Source: a virus. Taken from it: a stretch of DNA of 20,967 nucleotides. The position numbers were made by a program, and so were the translations under genes. The stretch covers positions 1-20,967 of IMG/VR virus record IMGVR_UViG_3300037245_000723; one strand, written 5' to 3'. Below, one piece after another: positions 535 to 20,967 of the stretch (position 1 is its first letter; every line of letters starts with the position of its first letter). Below the pieces are notes generated by a model that saw only the letters and a program-made list of their open reading frames with translations, was not told the DNA's origin and searched no databases.

Positions 535-1608
535 TTAGTCAGTAAGGTATCCATCTGCCGTAACTGCAACTTCACCACGAACCATCCAGAAGTCCTGAAG
601 GATGATTGTAGTTTGCTGTGCTTTCCAACCAGCATGACCACGCTGAGCCAAAGGATCTGAGTCAGTCGGTTTCGGGTTGACGACCATAGGCATGATCGAA
701 GCTTTGCCCTTAAGAGGCACTATACCGTATGCATCTCTTGCAAGGTACAGGATAGGATAGACGTGTGCTTCGGAGTTCGAATTTTCAATAACATTCGTTC
801 CACCAGAGGCACCAGCAGATCCTACGGTTGTCCATGGTTCGAAGATTGTGGTAAGGACGTATCTCACATCAGATATCTTTCCTATCTCCCCTTCCATGGG
901 TTTCATTGATCCGTACTTCTCAGAAGGAACAAAGCCAGCAGCCTGACGAATATCATACTCGACATCAGGGTGACAAATTCCGAAGAAGGACGGGGCAATT
1001 GCTTCCGTGCCATAATTGACAGTTGATTTCACGTATGAACTCAACGGTTTTGCCAACTGCCTTTTAAGTGTTCTTGTAGCGTTCCTTTGGAGGGAAGCTG
1101 CAAACACGGAATTAACGGATGCACGTGCAGCACCGTTAGCATACACAACGTTACTACCAGCACGAACAACGTTGAACCGGGCTTTCTCAAGGATGATAGC
1201 TGCTTGCTCACCAAGCACTTCAACAGCTTCCCTAAGGATAGGATCTTCGTGACTGTCAAGGATGATGTCGGTGATAGTAGTTCTATCGCCATACTGAATC
1301 AAGGTAGCCGAAAGGTCTTCCTTGTCAAGCATGGTTGCATCAGGCGTGACACCTTCACTCAGTTGCTTTTGGGTTGGATCGAAATTACCCGTAGCAAAGT
1401 AGTCCTGAGGTGTGAAGGAACTCAGGGAACTATCTTTCATAAAGTATCTACGAAACTTGATAGTCCGTGTACTGTTTGTAGGAAGCGGTTTGGACTGTCC
1501 AAACTTTTCCAGGATCAGGTAAGGGAAACCCCTTTCCAGTAAATCCTTGACAACAAATGCTGCTGTTCTTGGGGTGATATCCCCGTAAGTTGTTACTCCA
1601 GAACTCAT
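535..1608 (-). CDS. Major capsid protein, N4-gp56 family
   Basis: This 357-residue protein forms the icosahedral shell. The N-terminus has the TTYGDITPRTAAFVVKDLLE segment typical of the N4-gp56 capsid family, followed by FGQSKPLP, TIKFRRY and then SEGVTPDA near residue 85. The C-terminus carries the family's DPLAQRGHAGWK motif followed by a final beta segment. Length fits the family. The start at 1608 follows AAAGGAGAACGACT, a strong SD. It sits just after the scaffold gene, the usual order for prohead assembly. Family membership is from motif recognition rather than a search. Confidence 0.9.
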   Translation of the reverse strand: MSSGVTTYGDITPRTAAFVVKDLLERGFPYLILEKFGQSKPLPTNSTRTIKFRRYFMKDSSLSSFTPQDYFATGNFDPTQKQLSEGVTPDATMLDKEDLSATLIQYGDRTTITDIILDSHEDPILREAVEVLGEQAAIILEKARFNVVRAGSNVVYANGAARASVNSVFAASLQRNATRTLKRQLAKPLSSYVKSTVNYGTEAIAPSFFGICHPDVEYDIRQAAGFVPSEKYGSMKPMEGEIGKISDVRYVLTTIFEPWTTVGSAGASGGTNVIENSNSEAHVYPILYLARDAYGIVPLKGKASIMPMVVNPKPTDSDPLAQRGHAGWKAQQTTIILQDFWMVRGEVAVTADGYLTD

Positions 1609-2883: not shown

Positions 2884-4977
2884 TTATACTTGTCCTTCCT
2901 GCACCAAGTCAGACTGATTAGGTGTGCCTGTTCCTGGTGTCATCTCTCCTTCAACGTGTCCACCGGACTTGGCCTTAAGCATTGCCAGTTCCTGCATGAA
3001 CTCTTTGTCTGCTTTCTGTGCTTCTGCACGGTCCTGCTCTTCGATCTCGACAGTGTTCTTGTCCTTGATAAGTTCCATATCGTCAAGGTCCATAGCTTTG
3101 ACTATTGCACGTAGTACGTTGTCTCTACGGGTGTACATCATATCAATCTCATTTGCTGTCAAAGCTAAGAACTGGTGTAACGATTCCAGTTTGACTTCTC
3201 TTGCAATGAGTGATGTGCTACCCCTTGCCTGTACGTTGAAGTCTCCCTTGATATGCTCTTTCTCAGAGAACTCCATATTCCAGAAGTACAGTCCCTTAAT
3301 GAATGGTTTAGTTATACCTTCGTCAAAGTTCTTGACTTGATCTTTCAGTGTGATGTTAGCTGCACCCATTAGCATGGACAGGCCAGAGGCTGTCTTGCCA
3401 GCACCACCCATGTTGTCAGTGCTGCCATACATGTAACGTGGTATAGTTGTGATCTCATCAGCAGCAGTCTGGAAGAACCCGATCATTGCCATGAACTCAT
3501 TGGTATGAGTGTCAACGTTATACACATGCACAGCTTGTGCCTGTGCTTCCATACCTGTACCCTCTCTTGCAAATACCCTGAATGGATACAAGTCTCTTGG
3601 GTCTTCATCAGCAGCCAGTAGGTCTACGTTGACTTCAACGATAGGTCCTGCTGAGATAGCTGCATTGTCAAGCATTGCTCTTACTGCACCATTGAAGAGT
3701 TTTTGAACATCTCTCATTATCTTAGGTATACCATCTCCTAAGATGCTGGTGTCGTCCTTCTCATAGTAGTACAGATGATACGGTATCTCTGATCCTTCGA
3801 TGTAGGAGATAATAGCCTTAACAACGATGGGACCTAACAACCAAATGTTTACTGCTACGTCATTGCCCATGCCCTCAGGAACGTCTATGTCATTGTCCTC
3901 AAGAGTTTGCTTTGACATGTATCCCCAATACTCTATCATCTCGTACTTACCACGTCTCTTGTACACACTCTGACCGTCACTACCGATATTAGATGTACCA
4001 GCATTGGTTGTCTCTCTGTAGCCTTGGGTACGTTCTGAGCCAGTTGGGTTTAATGCCCTGAGGTCGTTCTCATGGTTCTTATAAGGTGCATCACCTTTAG
4101 GGTACATCTCAAGAAAAGCTTTGATAGCTTTACCGTTGAAGTCTTCCCTGTTGGCAAGCTCTAACACACGTTGCCTACTCTTAACGTGTCTCTGGAAACA
4201 TCCTCTCATATTGTCAGATGTCCTTGAAGAGAAGTCAGGATAGAAGTCCCATATGGATACGTGTTCACACCAAGGCGAAAGCGTATCGACATGTACTGTT
4301 ACCCATTCACCGTCAGGTCCAGGTAACCAACGTTTCACTCTCCGTTGCTTTACCAGTGGTCCCTTAAGTATGCCAGTGCCATAGATGTGTCCGTCCTTCA
4401 TGACACTACGAATGATATCCCTGTACTTCAATTCTGAGAGTTGATCTTCCATCTCAGCTTCCATGGCATCACTACGCTTCTGTGCTTCCTTGTTAAGCTC
4501 CTTCTTGATGAACTGTTCTGTGGCAGGCTCACCAGTTTGTTTCTCGTACTGGTCTGCAATATTTTGTATGATGCCTGGATTTAACTCCGGCACTGGTGTT
4601 GGGTCAATGCCCCAATTCTTTTCCTTGTTAGCTGGAAACAGGAGGTCAGTCTGACGTGAGGTTACAGTGTTGACCTTTGTCCGTGTGAGGCCAAGGAATG
4701 CCTTTGATCTCTTAGGATGCATACGTCCAAGAGTAATTGGATCGTACTCACCTCTGTACTGTCTGAGGTCATCAATGAAGTCACACTCTTTGTCTCGCCT
4801 GTCTATCTCGTACTCATTAAACAGACTCTGAATGACACCACCTAATGGAGTGATGAACTCTGTAAGAGTAGTACTCAGGGCATCGTCCACGCCCCGGTGT
4901 TTTGAAGCCTCAGCGAATACCTTATTAAACTGATCTACATCTTCATCTCTTTTTTGTAAGTCCTGTTCAGTTGCCAT
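2884..4977 (-). CDS. Portal protein (podovirus type)
   Basis: A 697-residue protein that should form the dodecameric portal at the capsid vertex, docking the terminase and later the tail. Near the N-terminus it has a DLRQYRGEYDP motif and then SELKYRDIIRSVMKDGHIYG, which is characteristic of long podovirus portals. The TASGLSMLMGAANITLKDQV segment lies in the C-terminal third. The last 60 or so residues are charged and helical, like the barrel and tail of long portals. ATG at 4977 has AAAGGAATCAAC upstream, overlapping the large terminase stop. Length matches P22/N4-like portals rather than siphovirus portals. Confidence 0.9.
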   Translation of the reverse strand: MATEQDLQKRDEDVDQFNKVFAEASKHRGVDDALSTTLTEFITPLGGVIQSLFNEYEIDRRDKECDFIDDLRQYRGEYDPITLGRMHPKRSKAFLGLTRTKVNTVTSRQTDLLFPANKEKNWGIDPTPVPELNPGIIQNIADQYEKQTGEPATEQFIKKELNKEAQKRSDAMEAEMEDQLSELKYRDIIRSVMKDGHIYGTGILKGPLVKQRRVKRWLPGPDGEWVTVHVDTLSPWCEHVSIWDFYPDFSSRTSDNMRGCFQRHVKSRQRVLELANREDFNGKAIKAFLEMYPKGDAPYKNHENDLRALNPTGSERTQGYRETTNAGTSNIGSDGQSVYKRRGKYEMIEYWGYMSKQTLEDNDIDVPEGMGNDVAVNIWLLGPIVVKAIISYIEGSEIPYHLYYYEKDDTSILGDGIPKIMRDVQKLFNGAVRAMLDNAAISAGPIVEVNVDLLAADEDPRDLYPFRVFAREGTGMEAQAQAVHVYNVDTHTNEFMAMIGFFQTAADEITTIPRYMYGSTDNMGGAGKTASGLSMLMGAANITLKDQVKNFDEGITKPFIKGLYFWNMEFSEKEHIKGDFNVQARGSTSLIAREVKLESLHQFLALTANEIDMMYTRRDNVLRAIVKAMDLDDMELIKDKNTVEIEEQDRAEAQKADKEFMQELAMLKAKSGGHVEGEMTPGTGTPNQSDLVQEGQV

Positions 4978-4988
4978 GTTGATTCCTT

Positions 4989-6557
4989 TTAGTAGCCACT
5001 TGTACTATCGGCAGGTTGATTATAAGCATTCTTCTTCGGTTTGCTCTTACGTTTCTTTCCAGTTTTTCCTTCTGAACATTCAATGGCACCGTACTGTACG
5101 GCCTCATGTATGTGACTGTAGATGTTCTTTTCCCACTTCTCTTTAAACATATCAGCATTACTTGATCGAACATTCATAACCCCAAGTCTCTTTCTCTCAA
5201 ACTTGAACTCAGATATAAAGCCCTTACGAATGTAGGCACACTTGGGTCCCACAGAAAAGCCGTCTAATCTTCGGAGGAAGTAAATAACTGCTTCCCTACG
5301 TTTGATGGGGTTGTTCGTTTTAGCATGTCTGTAACTCAGGCCACATCCTTTGATGATCTCAGCAGCAGACTTGGCATCGTTCTGTGATCGTATACCAGCC
5401 GAAGGATCGATGAGCAACTCAAAGTTGAACTTCGGGTAGTTGTTAATGAGATGAGGTTTCAAGTGATCATCACAGAATGCTTGGATGGAACAGTCCTCTG
5501 TGACGATTTCATCAAACACGTTCAATGTGCCTGTTGGAGTTAGCTGCATAAAGGCAGCAGCAGGAGTAAGGCCTAAGTCCATGCCTATGATGATTGGTAC
5601 TCCAGGCATTGGATCAATCATCTTGTCATTGAAGTGAACACCGTCCTGGTACTCTGCATACACAGGCTTGCCTGATCTAAGCTCACCATAGCTGTTCATG
5701 ATCATAACACTGACCCAATCAGCCTCAGCACCCAACACCTGATCTATATAGTAGTCGGCTGCAAGGTGAGGTACGTACCACTGTCCAGTTTCTTTGTTAT
5801 ACGTTGACTTGACTGTGGGCGGTTTGTTTATTGCTCCGGGTTCGAAGTGACCTAAGTTGTCTGCATCGGGATTGATGATGTAGGCATTGCCTTGTACATC
5901 AATCAGATCAGACTCTCCTGGTTTAACCATCAGTAGTGCTGGAGGTTGATGGTAGAAGAGATGTCCAGGTGGTTGCTCTTCTTCGGCTATGGAGTACAGC
6001 CAGTGGTCAGTAGGCACAGAGTTATAATCACAAATGATGAAGGGGAACGATGCTCCACCTTCACGTTCCTCAGGATACCTATTGATTCTTGACTTGAGCA
6101 TCTGATGCACTGCTCTTGGAATTTCAGCAGCCTCATTCAAATGCGCCCCTGTAAGCTCCAATGACTGTAGCTTGTTGACATCTTCTTCCCTGTCCAGGGC
6201 AATAAAGATTAACTCCATGATGATCGTTGACACGCCATCGGGATGTGGAAGCTTTAACTCTCCACGGATAGGTGTGTCGTACACGATGTTGATTAGGTTC
6301 TTAAACCATAGCTGCCATGATTTCACGACAGTAGTTTTGAGTGCCGGATATGTGGCTCTGAGTATTCCATAACGTGAACGTCTTACCAGTGTTCCGTCAG
6401 GCTCCTTCTGTACAGGTTGCTGCATTGCATTGAGCATGCAGTGCCAGATACAGCCGGAAGACTTACCACTACCAACCGGACCCCGTATGAACATGTACTT
6501 CATTAGTGCTGCGTGTACACCCTGAAATGTTGGGTTTGCAAAATAGTTTAACTCCAC
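4989..6557 (-). CDS. terL: Terminase large subunit
   Basis: This 522-residue protein is the packaging motor: an N-terminal ATPase and a C-terminal nuclease. Walker A is GPVGSGKS at residues 26-33. LTGAHLNEAAEIP fits the Walker B/catalytic glutamate region of this TerL type. The nuclease acidic residues are in IIIGMDLGLTP and LLIDPSAG, with a conserved YSHIHEAVQYG near the C-terminus. I choose GTG at 6557: CAAGGGGGAATC lies directly upstream, while the longer frame reaching a TTG at 6671 overlaps a separate well-supported small gene. The portal gene follows 11 bases after its stop. Confidence 0.92.
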   Translation of the reverse strand: MELNYFANPTFQGVHAALMKYMFIRGPVGSGKSSGCIWHCMLNAMQQPVQKEPDGTLVRRSRYGILRATYPALKTTVVKSWQLWFKNLINIVYDTPIRGELKLPHPDGVSTIIMELIFIALDREEDVNKLQSLELTGAHLNEAAEIPRAVHQMLKSRINRYPEEREGGASFPFIICDYNSVPTDHWLYSIAEEEQPPGHLFYHQPPALLMVKPGESDLIDVQGNAYIINPDADNLGHFEPGAINKPPTVKSTYNKETGQWYVPHLAADYYIDQVLGAEADWVSVMIMNSYGELRSGKPVYAEYQDGVHFNDKMIDPMPGVPIIIGMDLGLTPAAAFMQLTPTGTLNVFDEIVTEDCSIQAFCDDHLKPHLINNYPKFNFELLIDPSAGIRSQNDAKSAAEIIKGCGLSYRHAKTNNPIKRREAVIYFLRRLDGFSVGPKCAYIRKGFISEFKFERKRLGVMNVRSSNADMFKEKWEKNIYSHIHEAVQYGAIECSEGKTGKKRKSKPKKNAYNQPADSTSGY

Positions 6558-6579
6558 GATTCCCCCTTGAACGTGTGTG

Positions 6580-6717
6580 CTACTTCTTTTTCTTCTCATC
6601 TTTAAAAAGTTCGTCCATAATATCTTTACGGGTTTGTTTCTGTTTCTTAATAGTCTTCTTAGCACCACCAAACGAAAACAAACCTAACTTGGCTTTCTTT
6701 TTCTTTTTCCGTGGCAT
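6580..6717 (-). CDS. Small lysine-rich protein before terL
   Basis: A 45-residue protein, MPRKKKKKAKLGLFSFGGAK then a charged helix ending in four lysines. It has one of the best SD sites in the window, CTAAAGGAGGATAAATT directly before ATG. Its stop is 22 bases before the terL GTG. About 40 percent of residues are Lys or Arg. A nucleic-acid-binding or packaging accessory role is plausible from composition and position only. I do not recognise a family, and its frame differs from that of terL. Confidence 0.7.
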   Translation of the reverse strand: MPRKKKKKAKLGLFSFGGAKKTIKKQKQTRKDIMDELFKDEKKKK

Positions 6718-15357: not shown

Positions 15358-16098
15358 TTAATTGGAATCCCAATTGTCGGACATTGGCAGAAGACCACCT
15401 GTCAACTGCATGAACGTGTCAGTAATACTTGCTGCACTGAGAAGAGTAGTTCCCACAACGAACGGAGAAGCTGACGCATTCTTAATGTGCAATATCCCAA
15501 CCGGACAATATGTCTTGGGATCAACTTGAGGCATCTCAAACCTTGCTCCAGTTGTAGTAAGGACTTCGTCACCAGCGATCCAAACTGAAAGCTGACCATC
15601 TTCCATCGCTGTCACTACAAACCATTGGTCGGTTAGAGTAGTGATGGATTTGCCGGAAGCATTGACTGCTGCATGTGGTGCAACTTCCCAAAAGCCAGCC
15701 CATGAGCCTGACTTAAAAGGTTCATTACCTGGAACTTCAGGGGTCTGATTTGCATCAGTCACGGAAGTATGGGCCAGGGTACATCTGATTCTCTTACTCT
15801 TATGCCAACGAATGTCGTTGTAGACATAAGCTGTGGCACCTGCCCACGCTGTCTTTGTAACTTCGGTTGTGTCTGCACTGATATCAATTTCGTCAGCAGC
15901 AGCCACGATAGGTTGACCATTGATTACCATGTTCTTCCCACCAGTGGATTTAACATCGGACGCTGTAGAACCAATTGCCACAACTTGTGACTCTGTGTTA
16001 AATGTATTCATATATCCAACCAGTTCTTGCTGAGGCTTAAAGCTAAACTTATTTTGGATCTGTGTTATATCTCTTGTAGTTACTAAACTGTCACTCAT
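15358..16098 (-). CDS. Structural protein with CBM-like core, paralogue 1
   Basis: A 246-residue protein clearly paralogous, end to end, to the gene at 16243-16992. Both start SLVT-x-R-x-I-x-QI-x-x-KF and share NGQPIVA, VTKTAWAGATAY, DIRW, CTLAHTSVT, FEMPQVD and DTF(M/I)QLTGGL. The core WAGATAYVYNDIRW then CTLAHTS resembles small carbohydrate-binding modules of the CBM5/12 type, so binding of surface glycans is a reasonable inference. SD AAAGGAGATTCAA precedes ATG 16098. Likely a surface-exposed head or tail protein. Confidence 0.8.
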   Translation of the reverse strand: MSDSLVTTRDITQIQNKFSFKPQQELVGYMNTFNTESQVVAIGSTASDVKSTGGKNMVINGQPIVAAADEIDISADTTEVTKTAWAGATAYVYNDIRWHKSKRIRCTLAHTSVTDANQTPEVPGNEPFKSGSWAGFWEVAPHAAVNASGKSITTLTDQWFVVTAMEDGQLSVWIAGDEVLTTTGARFEMPQVDPKTYCPVGILHIKNASASPFVVGTTLLSAASITDTFMQLTGGLLPMSDNWDSN

Positions 16099-16190
16099 TT
16101 GAATCTCCTTTATGGTCCAACGGGTAACCGAAAAGCCCCGTTAATATTCTACTCACGTACAACATTCGGTTGTCAGTTATGATGTGAGGT
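16099..16190 (-). promoter_or_regulatory. Two-hairpin leader upstream of paralogue 1
   Basis: On the minus strand: a stem CTCAC/GTGAG (16184-16188 with 16052-type partner at 16152-16156) enclosing ACAAC/GTTGT (16069-type arms at 16169-16173 and 16159-16163) and the sequence CTGACAACC. It is followed by AACGGG/CCCGTT (16137-16142 with 16119-16124), and then the SD. Arms are 5-6 bp. The same layout, with changed base pairs, precedes paralogue 2, so the structure looks conserved. Its function is unknown; options are processing, attenuation or translational control. Confidence 0.5.
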
Positions 16191-16202
16191 TCCCTCCCCC
16201 AA

Positions 16203-16234
16203 ATCAAAAATAGCAGGGAGATTTCTCCCCCTGC
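16203..16234 (-). terminator. Terminator after the 16243 gene
   Basis: On the minus strand GCAGGGGGAG-AAAT-CTCCCTGC, with two extra G in the left arm, is followed by TATTTTTGATTT. It starts eight bases after the stop codon of paralogue 2. This is the cleanest intrinsic terminator in the window. Confidence 0.7.
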
Positions 16235-16242
16235 AATTAGTT

Positions 16243-16992
16243 TTAATTAACGTCCCAATTCTCAGACATAGCCATGAGGCCACCTGTTAACTGGATAAAA
16301 GTGTCCGTGATAGAACCTGTATCAAGGTCCGTAGTTCCCACGACAAAGGCTGCACTTGTTGCATTCAAGATGTGAAGCAGTGCAACTGGACAGTACAACT
16401 TGAGGTCAACCTGAGGCATTTCGAACTTCGCCCCTGTACTGGTAAGAACTTCGTCACCTGCAACCCACTCAGTCAGAACACCAGCTTGTGAAGCTGTAAC
16501 CAGAAACCACTGATCGTAGTCTTTGGTGATTGAAGCACCAACAGCGTTAACGGCTGTATGAGGTGCAATTTCCCACTTGGTGTCCCAAAGTGCAGACACG
16601 AAAGGCTCATTAGCTGGAGCTTCAGGGGTGTCAAGCAGGTTGGTTACTGAGGTGTGTGCTAAGGTACAACGTAGTCTGATCTGTGCTGTACCGTACCATC
16701 TGATGTCACCGAACACATAAGCAGTTGCTCCGGCCCATGCTGTCTTGGTAACTTCGACTGTGGAAGCGGAAATGTCAGTTCCAGTGTCGGCAGTTGCTAC
16801 AATAGGCTGACCATTGATGATCATTGCCTTGGTACCCGTAGCTTTAATGTTGGCTGGCACGGAATCGATTGCTACTGTCTGTGACTCACAATTAAACGTG
16901 TTCATTGCAGACACAAGATTCTGCATCGGTTTGTGACCGAACTTCTTTTCGATCTGTTCGATCTTTCTTACTGTTACTAAACTGTTTGCCAT
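16243..16992 (-). CDS. Structural protein with CBM-like core, paralogue 2
   Basis: A 249-residue protein, tandem paralogue of the next gene, with matching motifs along its full length (MANSLVTVRKIEQIEKKF, MNTFN, WAGATAYVFGDIRW, CTLAHTSVT, FEMPQVDLKLYCPVALLHI). Differences cluster in loop regions. SD AGGAGAACATC precedes ATG 16992. The preceding leader folds like the one before paralogue 1, so gene and leader were probably duplicated together. Likely a surface-exposed virion protein binding glycan or another virion protein. Confidence 0.8.
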   Translation of the reverse strand: MANSLVTVRKIEQIEKKFGHKPMQNLVSAMNTFNCESQTVAIDSVPANIKATGTKAMIINGQPIVATADTGTDISASTVEVTKTAWAGATAYVFGDIRWYGTAQIRLRCTLAHTSVTNLLDTPEAPANEPFVSALWDTKWEIAPHTAVNAVGASITKDYDQWFLVTASQAGVLTEWVAGDEVLTSTGAKFEMPQVDLKLYCPVALLHILNATSAAFVVGTTDLDTGSITDTFIQLTGGLMAMSENWDVN

Positions 16993-18082: not shown

Positions 18083-18487
18083 TTATGTATAATAACCTCT
18101 CACTACTACTTGTACACTTGTCCATCCAGGTGCTGTTCCAGTTCCAAAGTATTCTATGACACCATTTACGTCACAAGAAACTTTGCCACCCCAAGGAAAA
18201 TTATCATTGGCAATCTGGTTCTTTGCTGTTAGTACGTTTATTGTATTCGTGTTACCATTTTTCCTAAACGAAAGGCTTTTGCCTTTAACAGTGTTAACCA
18301 TGGATAGTATTATTAGTTCTACTGCTGTGGCACCTACAGGAAGAATGCCAGCACCACCAGGACCAAGGTCCCAACCATTCCACGTTCCATCTAACGTCAG
18401 ACCTGTTTGGTCCACATCTACAGTAGCTGGATCTCCCCTATCAATATACTGTCCTGCAATAAGGACACCGCTAATTTTTTGTGCCAT
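18083..18487 (-). CDS. Tandem fibre-domain paralogue 1
   Basis: A 134-residue protein starting MAQKISGVLIAGQYIDRGDP. It shares ISGV-x-(I/V)AGQY(I/V)DRGD, P-x-GA-x-AVEL, SFRKNGN-x-N, a CDVN-x-VIEYF segment and a final VRGYYT with the two genes upstream. This small beta-rich domain recurs in phage structural proteins and probably trimerises, but I know no assigned function. ATG at 18487 overlaps the upstream stop by one base (TAATG). A longer in-frame start would intrude on the previous gene and is rejected. Confidence 0.8.
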   Translation of the reverse strand: MAQKISGVLIAGQYIDRGDPATVDVDQTGLTLDGTWNGWDLGPGGAGILPVGATAVELIILSMVNTVKGKSLSFRKNGNTNTINVLTAKNQIANDNFPWGGKVSCDVNGVIEYFGTGTAPGWTSVQVVVRGYYT

Positions 18488-18879
18488 TAGAAATACCATC
18501 CTCGTATATTTATTTCGATATTGTCCCATGCTCCTGGTGCGGGATTAGTGGCAAAGTACTCAATGACCCTGTTAACATCACAGGATACTTTTCCACCAAA
18601 CAGGTGTGTTACTGCTGCAACTAAGCACTTTCGTTCGAGAGCGTTCTTGTCATTTGAATTTCCGTTCTTTCTGAAAGACAGTAGCTTATCAATGTTACCC
18701 GTTACGAATTGAATTGCCAATTCTACTGCTATTGCACCTGCCGGAACTACGGAAGACATGTCCCAAGCTACCCAAGTACTATCAAGTGTCATGGCACCAT
18801 GGGCAAGATCGGATGAGGAATTATCTCCTCTGTCCACATATTGTCCTGCAATTGGGACACCACTAATTTTCTGTACCAT
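18487..18879 (-). CDS. Tandem fibre-domain paralogue 2
   Basis: A 130-residue protein starting MVQKISGVPIAGQYVDRGDN and ending INIRGWYF. It has the same block order as its neighbours, including FRKNGNSN and VSCDVNRVIEYF. SD AAGG lies a few bases before ATG 18879. The one-base stop/start overlap with the next copy suggests one translation unit and comparable amounts of the two proteins. Likely a virion surface component; copies may form mixed trimers or occupy different sites. Confidence 0.8.
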   Translation of the reverse strand: MVQKISGVPIAGQYVDRGDNSSSDLAHGAMTLDSTWVAWDMSSVVPAGAIAVELAIQFVTGNIDKLLSFRKNGNSNDKNALERKCLVAAVTHLFGGKVSCDVNRVIEYFATNPAPGAWDNIEINIRGWYF

Positions 18880-18931
18880 TTTATTACCTTACGTCCCTAC
18901 TTAAAGAACAGGACATCTTTTTACTTCTGAT

Positions 18932-19318
18932 TTATGTGTACCAACCGCCTACTGTTACGTTCTGTTTTGACCAAGTTATACCATCACTACCAAGATACTC
19001 TACAACCCTGCCCGAATCACAGGCCACAGTAAAATCATAGGTTATAGTGCCGTTCGCAACTATTGTTCTGGCTATGACAGCATTAGACGTATTGGAGTTA
19101 CCGTTTTTTCTAAATTGTAAGGCCTTTCCAGCTACATCACCTTGAATAGTTATTCTAAGAAGAACTGCTTTTGCACCAACAGGCACTATGGATGATAAAT
19201 CCAGATTTCTCCATGTATTGTCACTGGTGAAGTTTCCCACAACATAATCACCAGTTGAAGGATCTCCACGGTCAATGTATTGCCCTGCAACAGTGACTCC
19301 TGATATCGTTTGAACCAT
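18932..19318 (-). CDS. Tandem fibre-domain paralogue 3
   Basis: A 128-residue protein starting MVQTISGVTVAGQYIDRGDP and ending VTVGGWYT, with LDLSSIVPVGAKAV, FRKNGNSNTSN and VACDSGRVVEYL matching its neighbours. ATG at 19318 is chosen because GGAG lies seven bases upstream and the paralogues align from this residue. The open frame continues upstream for 51 codons through an orphan tRNA half and the structured segment, which is not coding. It is the first protein gene after the tRNA/ncRNA region, so late transcription may begin upstream of it. Confidence 0.8.
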   Translation of the reverse strand: MVQTISGVTVAGQYIDRGDPSTGDYVVGNFTSDNTWRNLDLSSIVPVGAKAVLLRITIQGDVAGKALQFRKNGNSNTSNAVIARTIVANGTITYDFTVACDSGRVVEYLGSDGITWSKQNVTVGGWYT

Positions 19319-19333
19319 AATTATACTCCACAG

Positions 19334-19359
19334 TGCTCTGCCAATTGAGCTACGGGCCG
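19334..19359 (-). pseudogene. Orphan tRNA 5' half
   Basis: The minus strand reads a tRNA-like 5' part: seven acceptor bases, TA at positions 8-9, then a perfect D-arm with GCTC/GAGC around AATTGGCA. After that, no anticodon stem, T-arm or matching 3' acceptor strand follows; instead an SD and a protein start codon appear within 16 bases. It looks like the remnant of a tRNA cut by recombination, or a D-arm mimic. A spliced or permuted tRNA was considered, but I find no partner half nearby. Confidence 0.6.
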
Positions 19360-19376
19360 ATTGATTGTTTGGTGGA

Positions 19377-19483
19377 GTCCGTTCGGTAGGGGCTTTAACC
19401 GCCGTGTACCTACTGGTAACTGCCGGACACCGACAGTCCTGAGTGGTTTCCCTGAGGTACCACGTGGTCACTTACCTCCTCAG
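19377..19483 (-). ncRNA. Structured segment downstream of the tRNA pair
   Basis: On the minus strand: CTGAG/CTCAG (19479-19483 with 19439-19443) encloses a 6-bp hairpin GAGGTA/TACCTC (19473-19478 with 19454-19459). A hairpin ACTGTC/GGCAGT (19432-19437 with 19419-19424) follows. Next is GTAGG/CCTAC (19409-19413 with 19386-19390) with an inner GGC/GCC. The loop of the ACTGTC hairpin can also pair with GGAC at 19377-19380. No ORF with an SD lies here. It may be the 3' part of a larger RNA that includes the tRNAs. Confidence 0.4.
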
Positions 19484-19496
19484 TCTCCGAAATTTT

Positions 19497-19571
19497 TGGA
19501 GCAGATGACAGGATTCGAACCTGCAACTTCGGGGTGGAAGCCCAACGTGTGACCGTTGACACCACACCTGC
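19497..19571 (-). tRNA. tRNA-Gly(TCC)
   Basis: A full cloverleaf with encoded CCA. Acceptor GCAGGTG pairs with CATCTGC (one G-T), the D-stem is GTGT/ACAC, and the anticodon stem TTGGG/CCCGA encloses loop CTTCCAC with anticodon TCC. The T-arm GCAGG-TTCGAAT-CCTGT and discriminator T complete it. It reads GGA codons. It lies four bases downstream of tRNA-Ala and is probably processed from the same transcript. Confidence 0.95.
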
Positions 19572-19575
19572 TCAA

Positions 19576-19651
19576 TGGTGGACCGTGTAGGGATCGAACC
19601 TACGACCTATTCCGTGCAAGGGAATTGCTCTCCCTGCTGAGCTAACAGCCC
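19576..19651 (-). tRNA. tRNA-Ala(TGC)
   Basis: A full cloverleaf with encoded CCA. Acceptor GGGCTGT pairs with ACGGTCC (two wobbles), the D-stem is GCTC/GAGC, and the anticodon stem ATTCC/GGAAT encloses loop CTTGCAC with anticodon TGC. The T-arm is GTAGG-TTCGATC-CCTAC. It reads GCA codons, which are common in the alanine-rich structural proteins here. Only five bases separate it from the structured domain upstream. Confidence 0.95.
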
Positions 19652-19656
19652 ACAAT

Positions 19657-19966
19657 GGAAAGATCATTCAGTTTCGATGTCAGTTACGTGCATCCGGCCT
19701 GACCACCATTGCACTGTAGTCGAATTGCCCTCTTTCCATAGTGGTGGCTTTTGTTTTTTCACAGGAATCAACCACCGAACCTGTCAATCTGTGGATGCTC
19801 CAGGGATCAAGTCCCTTCACACATCCATTGCACGGTTTTTTATTTCAGTCGGCCATACCGTGGGAAACCGACTACTTCATAAACTCTTTGTCTCCCAAGT
19901 AAGTTAAGTACTAAATCCTGGTTGTCAAGTGGTCGGCAACCCCCTTTAGGTCCGGAGACAACCTAA
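19657..19966 (-). ncRNA. Pseudoknot-rich putative noncoding RNA
   Basis: On the minus strand five successive folds are visible. (A) TTAGGT/ACCTAA whose loop TGTCTCC pairs with GGAGACA at 19889-19895. (B) AGTCGG/CCGACT whose loop CACGGT pairs with ACCGTG at 19831-19836, with a third loop GAAATAAAAA. (H) TGGATG/CATCCA with inner AGGGA/TCCCT. (C) ACAGG/CCTGT whose loop GGTGG pairs with CCACC at 19743-19747, across GAAAAAACAAAAG. (D) A closing stem GGAAAGA/TCTTTCC with TTCGA/TCGAA and a GTGCA/TGCAC, GTCAG/CTGAC pseudoknot. No credible ORF overlaps. tmRNA was considered, but its tRNA-like ends and tag are not seen. A GOLLD-like or novel phage RNA is possible. Confidence 0.6.
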
Positions 19967-20044
19967 GTAAGTGGTATAGCTCTGAAACAAAATTTAAAAT
20001 AATTTACTTTTGAACTGAATATGTATACGTATTTGTGTCAAAAC

Positions 20045-20084
20045 AATGGTATCAGGTGTCGTTAATGGTATCACGAATGGATCA
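20045..20084. repeat. Direct repeats AATGGTATCA
   Basis: Exact copies at 20045-20054 and 20064-20073, 19 bases apart, and a one-base-shorter variant AATGGATCA at 20076-20084. They lie just upstream (on the minus strand) of the TTGACA candidate. Candidate binding sites for a regulator or replication protein. Confidence 0.5.
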
Positions 20085-20119
20085 TATGAGGCGTTTATGA
20101 CCCGTATACGACTCAGGAC

Positions 20120-20187
20120 GTGGACACGTTTTACACACATGTACCCGTTGTGGACACGTTTTGCCACCAGAAAATGTGTTTTACCAC
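20120..20187. repeat. Direct repeats GTGGACACGTTTT and variant
   Basis: Exact 13-base copies at 20120-20132 and 20150-20162, 30 bases apart. A related TGTGTTTTACCAC at 20175-20187 resembles the sequence following the second copy. Near-integral helical spacing suggests protein-binding sites. Confidence 0.5.
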
Positions 20188-20567
20188 GGATGTCCATAAA
20201 TATAACCACAAATATCCGTAAGAGGCAACGGCATCGTTCCGATACCTGTACAAAGAATTGTATCCCCACGTACAATCTCTTGTAGGTATAGCTACAATAT
20301 AGCTACATCGTAGCTACCTTGGGAATCGTGCAAATGGGATAGCTGTGAAACTGGTTGCTGATACGTGTCGGATACCGTCTCAGATGCAGCTACTGATAGA
20401 TATGGGAATGCCAGCTTCTGCTATTAGTTACTGAGCTATACCAGCGTCCAGGTCTGTCGATAATATTGCCGTGTCGTGGACGTGGTGGCGTAAGGGACGT
20501 TCTGAGGTTCATTCGTGTATCCCTCTGATTCTCAGGATGGATATCCTCCGTCCCAGGTTTCCAAAAA

Positions 20568-20694
20568 CCTATAGAGATATATAAGTAGACAGTTACAATA
20601 GTAAGAGTACTGCGTACTACTGTTACTGTTAAACTGTAACTGTAACTGACAGCAATAGACAGTGATTCATATGATCTCTATAGATCTCTATAGG
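20568..20694. repeat. Three nested inverted repeats
   Basis: The outer arms are a perfect 11-bp pair CCTATAGAGAT (20568-20578) and ATCTCTATAGG (20684-20694). Inside are CAGTTAC (20590-20596) with GTAACTG (20636-20642 or 20643-20649), and an inner AGTAC-TGC-GTACT (20606-20618). The sequence is AT-rich. The 20621-20649 part is a run of TGTTACTGTT/AACTGTAACT units. It could be a cruciform-forming origin or control element. Confidence 0.6.
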
Positions 20695-20736
20695 AATCCC
20701 TTGTAGACATTGGCTCTCAGAAGGACCCGTCCGACC

Positions 20737-20771
20737 TTGCAATCATTGCAAGAAATATGCAATCATTGCAA
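20737..20771. promoter_or_regulatory. Two palindromic operator-like sites
   Basis: TTGCAATCATTGCAA at 20737-20751 is a perfect odd palindrome with a central C. A second copy of 14 of those bases lies at 20758-20771, its centre 20 bp away, about two helical turns. This geometry is typical of cooperative dimer binding by a repressor or activator. Confidence 0.6.
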
Positions 20772-20779
20772 CTTATACC

Positions 20780-20812
20780 TGTCACCATAAATTATCGGTG
20801 TCACCATAAATT
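20780..20812 (-). promoter_or_regulatory. Paired 14-bp direct repeats, possible phage promoter elements
   Basis: TGTCACCATAAATT occurs at 20780-20793 and 20799-20812. On the minus strand each reads AATTTATGGTGACA. The ATTTA and GGTGACA blocks are the same as in the SP6 RNA polymerase promoter, with one extra T between them. The left copy continues GGTATAAG. A single-subunit phage polymerase promoter is one reading, tandem operators another. Confidence 0.45.
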
Positions 20813-20903
20813 CTTATTTTAAAATATCCCGAAAAATAAAATACTGTCCTGGCTTGTGTACGAACCTATATGTTTCACTTACGAGTCCGGCCCGTCCAGA
20901 GTT

Positions 20904-20935
20904 CCCCCCCACGCCCCCGGTACCCTATCCCCCCC
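20904..20935 (-). other. Strong predicted G-quadruplex
   Basis: The minus strand has four G-runs of 7, 3, 5 and 7 bases separated by ATA, TACC and CGT, satisfying the usual G3+N1-7 rule. It lies in a gene-free control region with much lower GC on its left side. Confidence 0.7.
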
Positions 20936-20967
20936 ACGTTCCTTATTGTAGTTGGTTCTCAATAGCA

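Follow-up and report, generated by a model that had tools for sequence, protein, structure and literature searches.

The window analysed here is a complete IMG/VR record of 20,967 bases, a fragment of a tailed phage. Its structural genes all lie on the minus strand and both of its tRNA genes point in the same direction (Table 1). Upstream of the tRNA genes, and on the same strand, lies the candidate RNA, a stretch of about 310 bases (19966-19655). Read along the minus strand, the stretch comes first and is followed by tRNA-Ala, tRNA-Gly and the late genes, all co-directional, and no terminator-like site was found between it and tRNA-Ala or the downstream string of genes.

The original prediction let this stretch end five bases before tRNA-Ala. 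The two indeed adjoin, but the last helix stops at 19655 and the first base of tRNA-Ala is 19651, which leaves a gap of 3 nt. It also described the stretch as free of ORFs, which is correct for the minus strand (none of at least 50 aa) but not for the plus strand, where an antisense ORF of 76 aa (19677-19907) overlaps it. This ORF has no convincing family match.

Directly upstream of the stretch is a repeat-rich, putative control region. The ~960 bp at 19990-20967 hold no convincing genes and are dense in paired short repeats (GTGGACACGTTTT, TGCAATCATTGCAA, AATGGTATCA and TCCCCCCCACG, each present twice, and GGTATAGCTcTGAAAC, present three times). This region looks like a control or origin region, and comparison with annotated phages gave no match to it. 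A 16-nt repeat is found in three copies against 0.16 expected, and none of 100 shuffles contained as many. Its copy next to the stretch is probably the upstream limit of the RNA, or else it pairs with 19859-19840 as one arm of an alternative long-range helix; the repeat itself could be a DNA-level site.

Directly after the tRNAs, the minus strand encodes three tandem paralogous proteins (18083-19321; 130-148 aa, 45-53% identical) that share the motif xAGQYxDRGD...FRKNGNxN. An alignment search of IMG/VR found no relatives of these three, and the one compared with both libraries, the protein at 18487-18879 near the stretch, matched neither Pfam nor PHROG. Two other paralogous proteins of 246 and 249 aa are encoded at 15358-16992, also on the minus strand. 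They have relatives in the viral record G009, and one of them shows a weak match, below cut-off, to the carbohydrate-binding module CBM_5_12.

Pairings within the stretch and their strength against chance

According to the original prediction, the minus strand holds at least four successive pairings of pseudoknot topology, two of them with A-rich third loops. All four are present, as are both A-rich loops (Table 1); two of the pseudoknots, PKb and PKc, are strong and the other two are at chance level. PKb and PKc lie on one strand, 46 nt apart. The 5' third of the stretch offers several competing pairings, and in the region of the 5' pseudoknot the competing partners are GGTTGTC/GACAACC and GGGAGAC with GTTTCCCA. 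Two helices of at least 8 bp were observed against 0.35 expected, a number reached by 104 of 2000 shuffles. PKd and the pairing of the H1 loop are true complementarities, each with competing partners; the score of PKd, about -10, is common among shuffles.

Table 1. Features of the window and, in the last rows, loci of the capsid-leader RNA in other records
Feature	Position	Strand	Details
Capsid gene	535-1608	-	
Portal gene	2884-4977	-	
Terminase gene	4989-6671	-	
tRNA-Gly (TCC)	19497-19571	-	ARAGORN; Rfam 54.7 bits; intact
tRNA-Ala (TGC)	19576-19651	-	ARAGORN; Rfam 63.9 bits; intact
Expected RNase P site	19651	-	5' end of tRNA-Ala
3' domain	19655-19739	-	9-bp closing helix ATGGAAAGA (19739-19731) / TCTTTCCAT (19663-19655), an inverted repeat
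PKd, within 3' domain	19679-19714	-	GTGCA/TGCAC crossed with GTCAG/CTGAC, 5+5 bp; short L3 GTAA
PKc, H-type pseudoknot	19784-19743	-	score -14.0; S1 ACAGG/CCTGT, 5 bp; S2 GGTGGTT/AGCCACC, 7 bp; L1 TTC; L2 GATT; A-rich L3 GAAAAAACAAA
Two-part hairpin between PKb and PKc	19792-19827	-	TGGATG/CATCCA and AGGGA/TCCCT
PKb, H-type pseudoknot	19874-19831	-	score -16.7; S1 TAGTCGG/CCGACTG, 7 bp; S2 CACGGT/ACCGTG, 6 bp; L1 TTTCC; L2 ATGG; A-rich L3 AAATAAAAA
Partner of H1 loop	19895-19888	-	GGAGACAA; can pair with H1 loop TTGTCTCC (19961-19954), making the 5' pseudoknot
Hairpin H2	19920-19941	-	GGTTG/CAACC
5' hairpin H1	19946-19966	-	TTAGG/CCTAA; perfect pairing seen directly
16-nt repeat GGTATAGCTCTGAAAC	19973-19988	+	other copies at 20336-20351 (+) and 20427-20442 (-)
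Capsid-leader RNA	L080:9782-9960		
Capsid-leader RNA	L084:9781-9960		
Capsid-leader RNA	L083:6149-6325		
Capsid-leader RNA			also in L094, L088, L089, L081, L095, L101, L153 (Polynucleobacter), L159 (Hydrogenophaga), L150 (Cupriavidus) and others

To compare these pairings with chance, H-type pseudoknots were scored as the stacking energy with a fixed loop penalty added, and chains in which both stems had at least 5 bp were tested against 3000 dinucleotide shuffles. The best chain of the stretch scored -40.8 while the shuffles scored -9.2 +/- 7.6, and two of the 3000 equalled it. Pseudoknots with an A-rich L3 and a score of -12 or better occurred once in 13 of the 3000 shuffles and twice in none. 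As a control, the detector found both PK1 and PK2 of the E. coli tmRNA, which score -12.5 and -11.0 on the same scale; PKb and PKc both outscore PK1. Among all A-rich-L3 pseudoknots with stems of at least 5 bp on both strands of 266 kb (the window and related phage DNA), PKb and PKc are the strongest. Another 788 kb, from more distant relatives, contains comparable pseudoknots singly, some of them in the capsid-leader RNA described below.

In H-type pseudoknots, the deep groove of S2 is spanned by a short L1, and the shallow groove of S1 holds a long L3 that is often A-rich. It is on the minus strand alone, which also carries the tRNAs and the late genes, that PKb and PKc show such loops (L1 of 3-5 nt, L3 of 9-11 nt).

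We also folded the minus strand from 19990 to 19652 (339 nt) without pseudoknots. The nested fold reached -107.9 kcal/mol, against -90.6 +/- 5.0 for shuffles, which corresponds to a z of -3.5 (0 of 100 shuffles) on the minus strand; the plus strand gave -1.8. The minus strand folds better than shuffled sequence, but part of this z is due to a long helix, 19990-19973/19859-19840, which is incompatible with PKb and whose 5' arm is one of the three copies of the 16-nt repeat. Because this helix would unmake PKb, the z of -3.5 is not evidence for the pseudoknots themselves. Local windows of 160 nt had an unremarkable fold z.

These two mutually exclusive folds, the long helix of the lowest-energy nested fold on one side and PKb on the other, are what might be expected of a cis-acting leader. 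The pseudoknots would then form a 5' UTR that protects or regulates the transcript of the tRNAs and late genes, either by stabilizing it or by switching between PKb and the long 5' helix, and no free RNA would be made. The position of the stretch, first on a co-directional gene string and immediately downstream of the putative control region, is consistent with such a role. However, RNase P would normally excise the intact tRNA-Ala and so part the leader from the downstream genes, and the repeat that forms the 5' arm of the alternative helix is found twice more upstream and could be a DNA site. We consider a purely cis-acting leader unlikely, even if it is the leading alternative.

Another explanation is that the pairings are chance complementarity in non-coding DNA, or belong to a control region acting at the DNA level. 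No conservation was seen, the adjacent 960 bp are full of paired short repeats resembling DNA sites, and in total chain score, with 4-bp stems counted, the stretch is matched by a few coding windows of the same genome. Since PKd and the 5' pseudoknot are no better than chance and a few coding windows match the total chain, the case for a structured RNA rests on PKb and PKc. For these, the shuffle frequencies given above argue against chance, and the strand asymmetry of their loops fits an RNA and not a DNA element. This explanation is therefore improbable in our view.

Likeness to tRNA and to known RNA classes

PKc can be read as a tRNA T-arm (ACAGGTTCG..ATTCCTGT) with 7 nt inserted in the T-loop. 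When these 7 nt are removed, the remaining sequence (ACAGGTTCG joined to ATTCCTGT) equals the T-arm at 17 of 17 positions, as in the tRNA-Thr of the related record G007. No other site with this T-arm-plus-insert pattern was found in 3.3 Mb of strand-bases, a count to be read with the fact that the pattern was noticed after the fact. The local similarity of the stretch to 31 phage tRNAs, when summed, was higher than in 294 of 300 shuffles (it was reached by 6), while the best single tRNA similarity was reached by 22 of 300 and is thus only within the top 7%. Overall, the tRNA likeness of the stretch is slight.

The stretch could accordingly be the debris of a tRNA array, in which decayed tRNA genes have left arms that now look like pseudoknots. 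The T-arm within PKc and the summed similarity point in this direction. Yet no further tRNA covariance match appeared at E values up to 10, and decay of tRNA genes leaves unexplained the perfect S2 and the A-rich L3 of PKc, as well as the whole of PKb. Together with the modest rank of the best single similarity and the post hoc nature of the T-arm pattern, this makes an origin as mere debris rather improbable.

The original prediction proposed a member of the tmRNA or GOLLD type, with ROOL among the families to be checked, or else a new class. Membership of the named families was not borne out. With Rfam models at E values up to 10, the minus strand of 19300-20967 matched two tRNAs only, and the plus strand gave three sub-threshold chance matches. 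Like tmRNA (ssrA, PK1-PK4), the stretch has tandem H-type pseudoknots with a short L1 and an A-rich L3. It differs from tmRNA in having no tRNA-like domain and no tag reading frame, as the original prediction had stated: ARAGORN detected neither, reporting only tRNA-Ala and tRNA-Gly, and a three-frame translation contained no tag candidate. The presence of ATTCGAC and of a T-arm-like motif had suggested tmRNA, permuted forms included, but no acceptor pairing follows this motif.

Type III antitoxin RNAs of the ToxI kind are chains of H-type pseudoknots as well. They consist of direct repeats, nearly identical to one another and arrayed next to a toxin gene, whereas no tandem repeat family is present within 19655-19970. 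A group I intron was rejected, as there is no Rfam match and tRNA-Ala is intact.

GOLLD RNAs assemble into multimers, and ROOL RNAs, like those of GOLLD, are longer than the RNA described here. Both share with the stretch a position near phage tRNA genes: GOLLD, found in phages next to tRNA genes, contains pseudoknots and A-minor interactions, and ROOL, encoded by phages and prophages and frequently close to tRNA islands, has multiple pseudoknots (PMC12286853). However, GOLLD is often longer than 800 nt (PMC12286853) while the pseudoknotted part here is ~310 nt, and neither the GOLLD model (at gathering threshold or at E up to 10) nor the ROOL model (at E up to 10) matched the stretch. Theta ribozymes of gut phages, which are HDV-like, are also small pseudoknotted RNAs adjoining phage tRNA genes; they form a nested double pseudoknot with a P3 hairpin, and cleavage falls at the 3' end of the tRNA (PMC10879173). 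A catalytic C is a further mark of this class. The RNA here lies 5' and not 3' of tRNA-Ala, PKb and PKc have neither a P3 hairpin nor the space for one, their L2 measures only 4 nt, and Rfam gave no match. Despite the shared pseudoknot form and genomic neighbourhood, a diverged member of tmRNA, GOLLD, ROOL or the HDV-like ribozymes is thus very improbable.

Search for relatives and a second pseudoknot RNA

Searching with blastn (word size 11) in 50,697 phage and 72,556 plasmid records gave no match to the RNA, and it was not found by DNA search of 62 related viral records, taken whole. A covariance model built from the single sequence had a sole match of 20 nt in 50 related viral records, located in a record brought in by the 16-nt core pattern. 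Scanning IMG/VR with this 16-nt core returned 17 chance matches, none with pseudoknot context, and two scans with tRNA-Ala returned 0 matches and 9 loci without the RNA upstream. Altogether, ~90 records of capsid-related or tRNA-sharing viruses yielded no homologue.

Searches for related phages with the terminase and with the adjacent paralogues yielded none. Those based on the capsid yielded 17, 80 and 10 loci, none of which carries the RNA, with few of the closest capsid relatives long enough to show the tRNA side. The capsid relatives are 53-76% identical and are joined by prophages in Burkholderiales, Marinomonas and others. The parts of G009 that were read contain no tRNAs. G007 and G011, the nearest relatives that have tRNA clusters, carry a cluster of 12 tRNAs including Gly, Asp, Ala and Thr, and in both a protein gene occupies the place upstream of the tRNAs where the RNA would sit.

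About 15 of the capsid-related phages and prophages share a different pseudoknot RNA, located ~165-275 nt upstream of the capsid match or start (Table 1). It consists of an H-type pseudoknot, a hairpin and a closing helix, with GGAGC...GCTCC and the motifs GGGACACG and TCTGCATACGGCA. In an alignment of 15 sequences (A4), the two crossed stems, the hairpin and the closing helix hold in 88.6% of cells, against 86.1% in shuffles. The covariation score was 0.135; shuffles gave 0.092, with none of 500 reaching the observed value, and slid controls gave at most 0.075. This capsid-leader RNA had no accepted Rfam match and none was found in annotated phages; as a candidate new cis-regulatory RNA it is a good one. 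The window does not contain it, and the gap between its scaffold and capsid genes is only 12 bases. Separately, L066 holds a strong GC-rich pseudoknot (5187-5240; GCGGCG/CGCCGC with GCCCCCC/GGGGGGT and an L3 rich in A/T), which follows an ORF and precedes a predicted tRNA-Ala by ~130 nt.

A candidate tRNA-adjacent phage RNA

The best reading of the stretch is a structured phage RNA restricted to its lineage. Of the original prediction, the structured RNA is retained as the best fit to the statistics, the strand sense and the position, while the classes it named do not apply. Among the alternatives, the cis-acting leader is the main one, followed by chance and then by tRNA debris.

GOLLD, ROOL and similar tRNA-adjacent phage RNAs are presumed to act in trans. 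By analogy, we propose that the minus strand of the stretch encodes a genuine structured phage RNA of ~310 nt that leads the transcript of the tRNAs and late genes, is freed by RNase P and acts in trans; we assign this proposal a probability of about 0.45. Such an RNA would start near 19970 and end at the 5' end of tRNA-Ala, and would comprise at least two H-type pseudoknots with A-rich loops and a closed, pseudoknot-bearing 3' domain. It would be transcribed as a leader, with the transcript running on into tRNA-Ala, tRNA-Gly and the late genes. Cleavage by RNase P at tRNA-Ala would then give a defined 3' end, and the product of ~310 nt would terminate in the closing helix of the 3' domain. 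Once freed, this compact RNA may resist nucleases and subsequently act in trans.

A more specific form of this proposal, which we hold tentatively and with some doubt, is that the stretch represents a new class of small phage RNA located next to tRNAs. Its members would be chains of pseudoknots with A-rich loops, tmRNA-like in form and without a tRNA-like domain. They may have been built out of tRNA arms, and RNase P would release them in the course of late transcription.

Being a single sequence without relatives, the RNA is a candidate and not a family. As a candidate for a structured phage RNA outside the known classes it is a good one, and it is small enough for full in vitro probing. Phage RNAs beside tRNA arrays, including GOLLD, ROOL and the theta ribozymes, are widespread and mostly unexplained. 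If our reading is true, a tmRNA-style chain of pseudoknots can stand alone as a phage RNA, without a tRNA-like domain.
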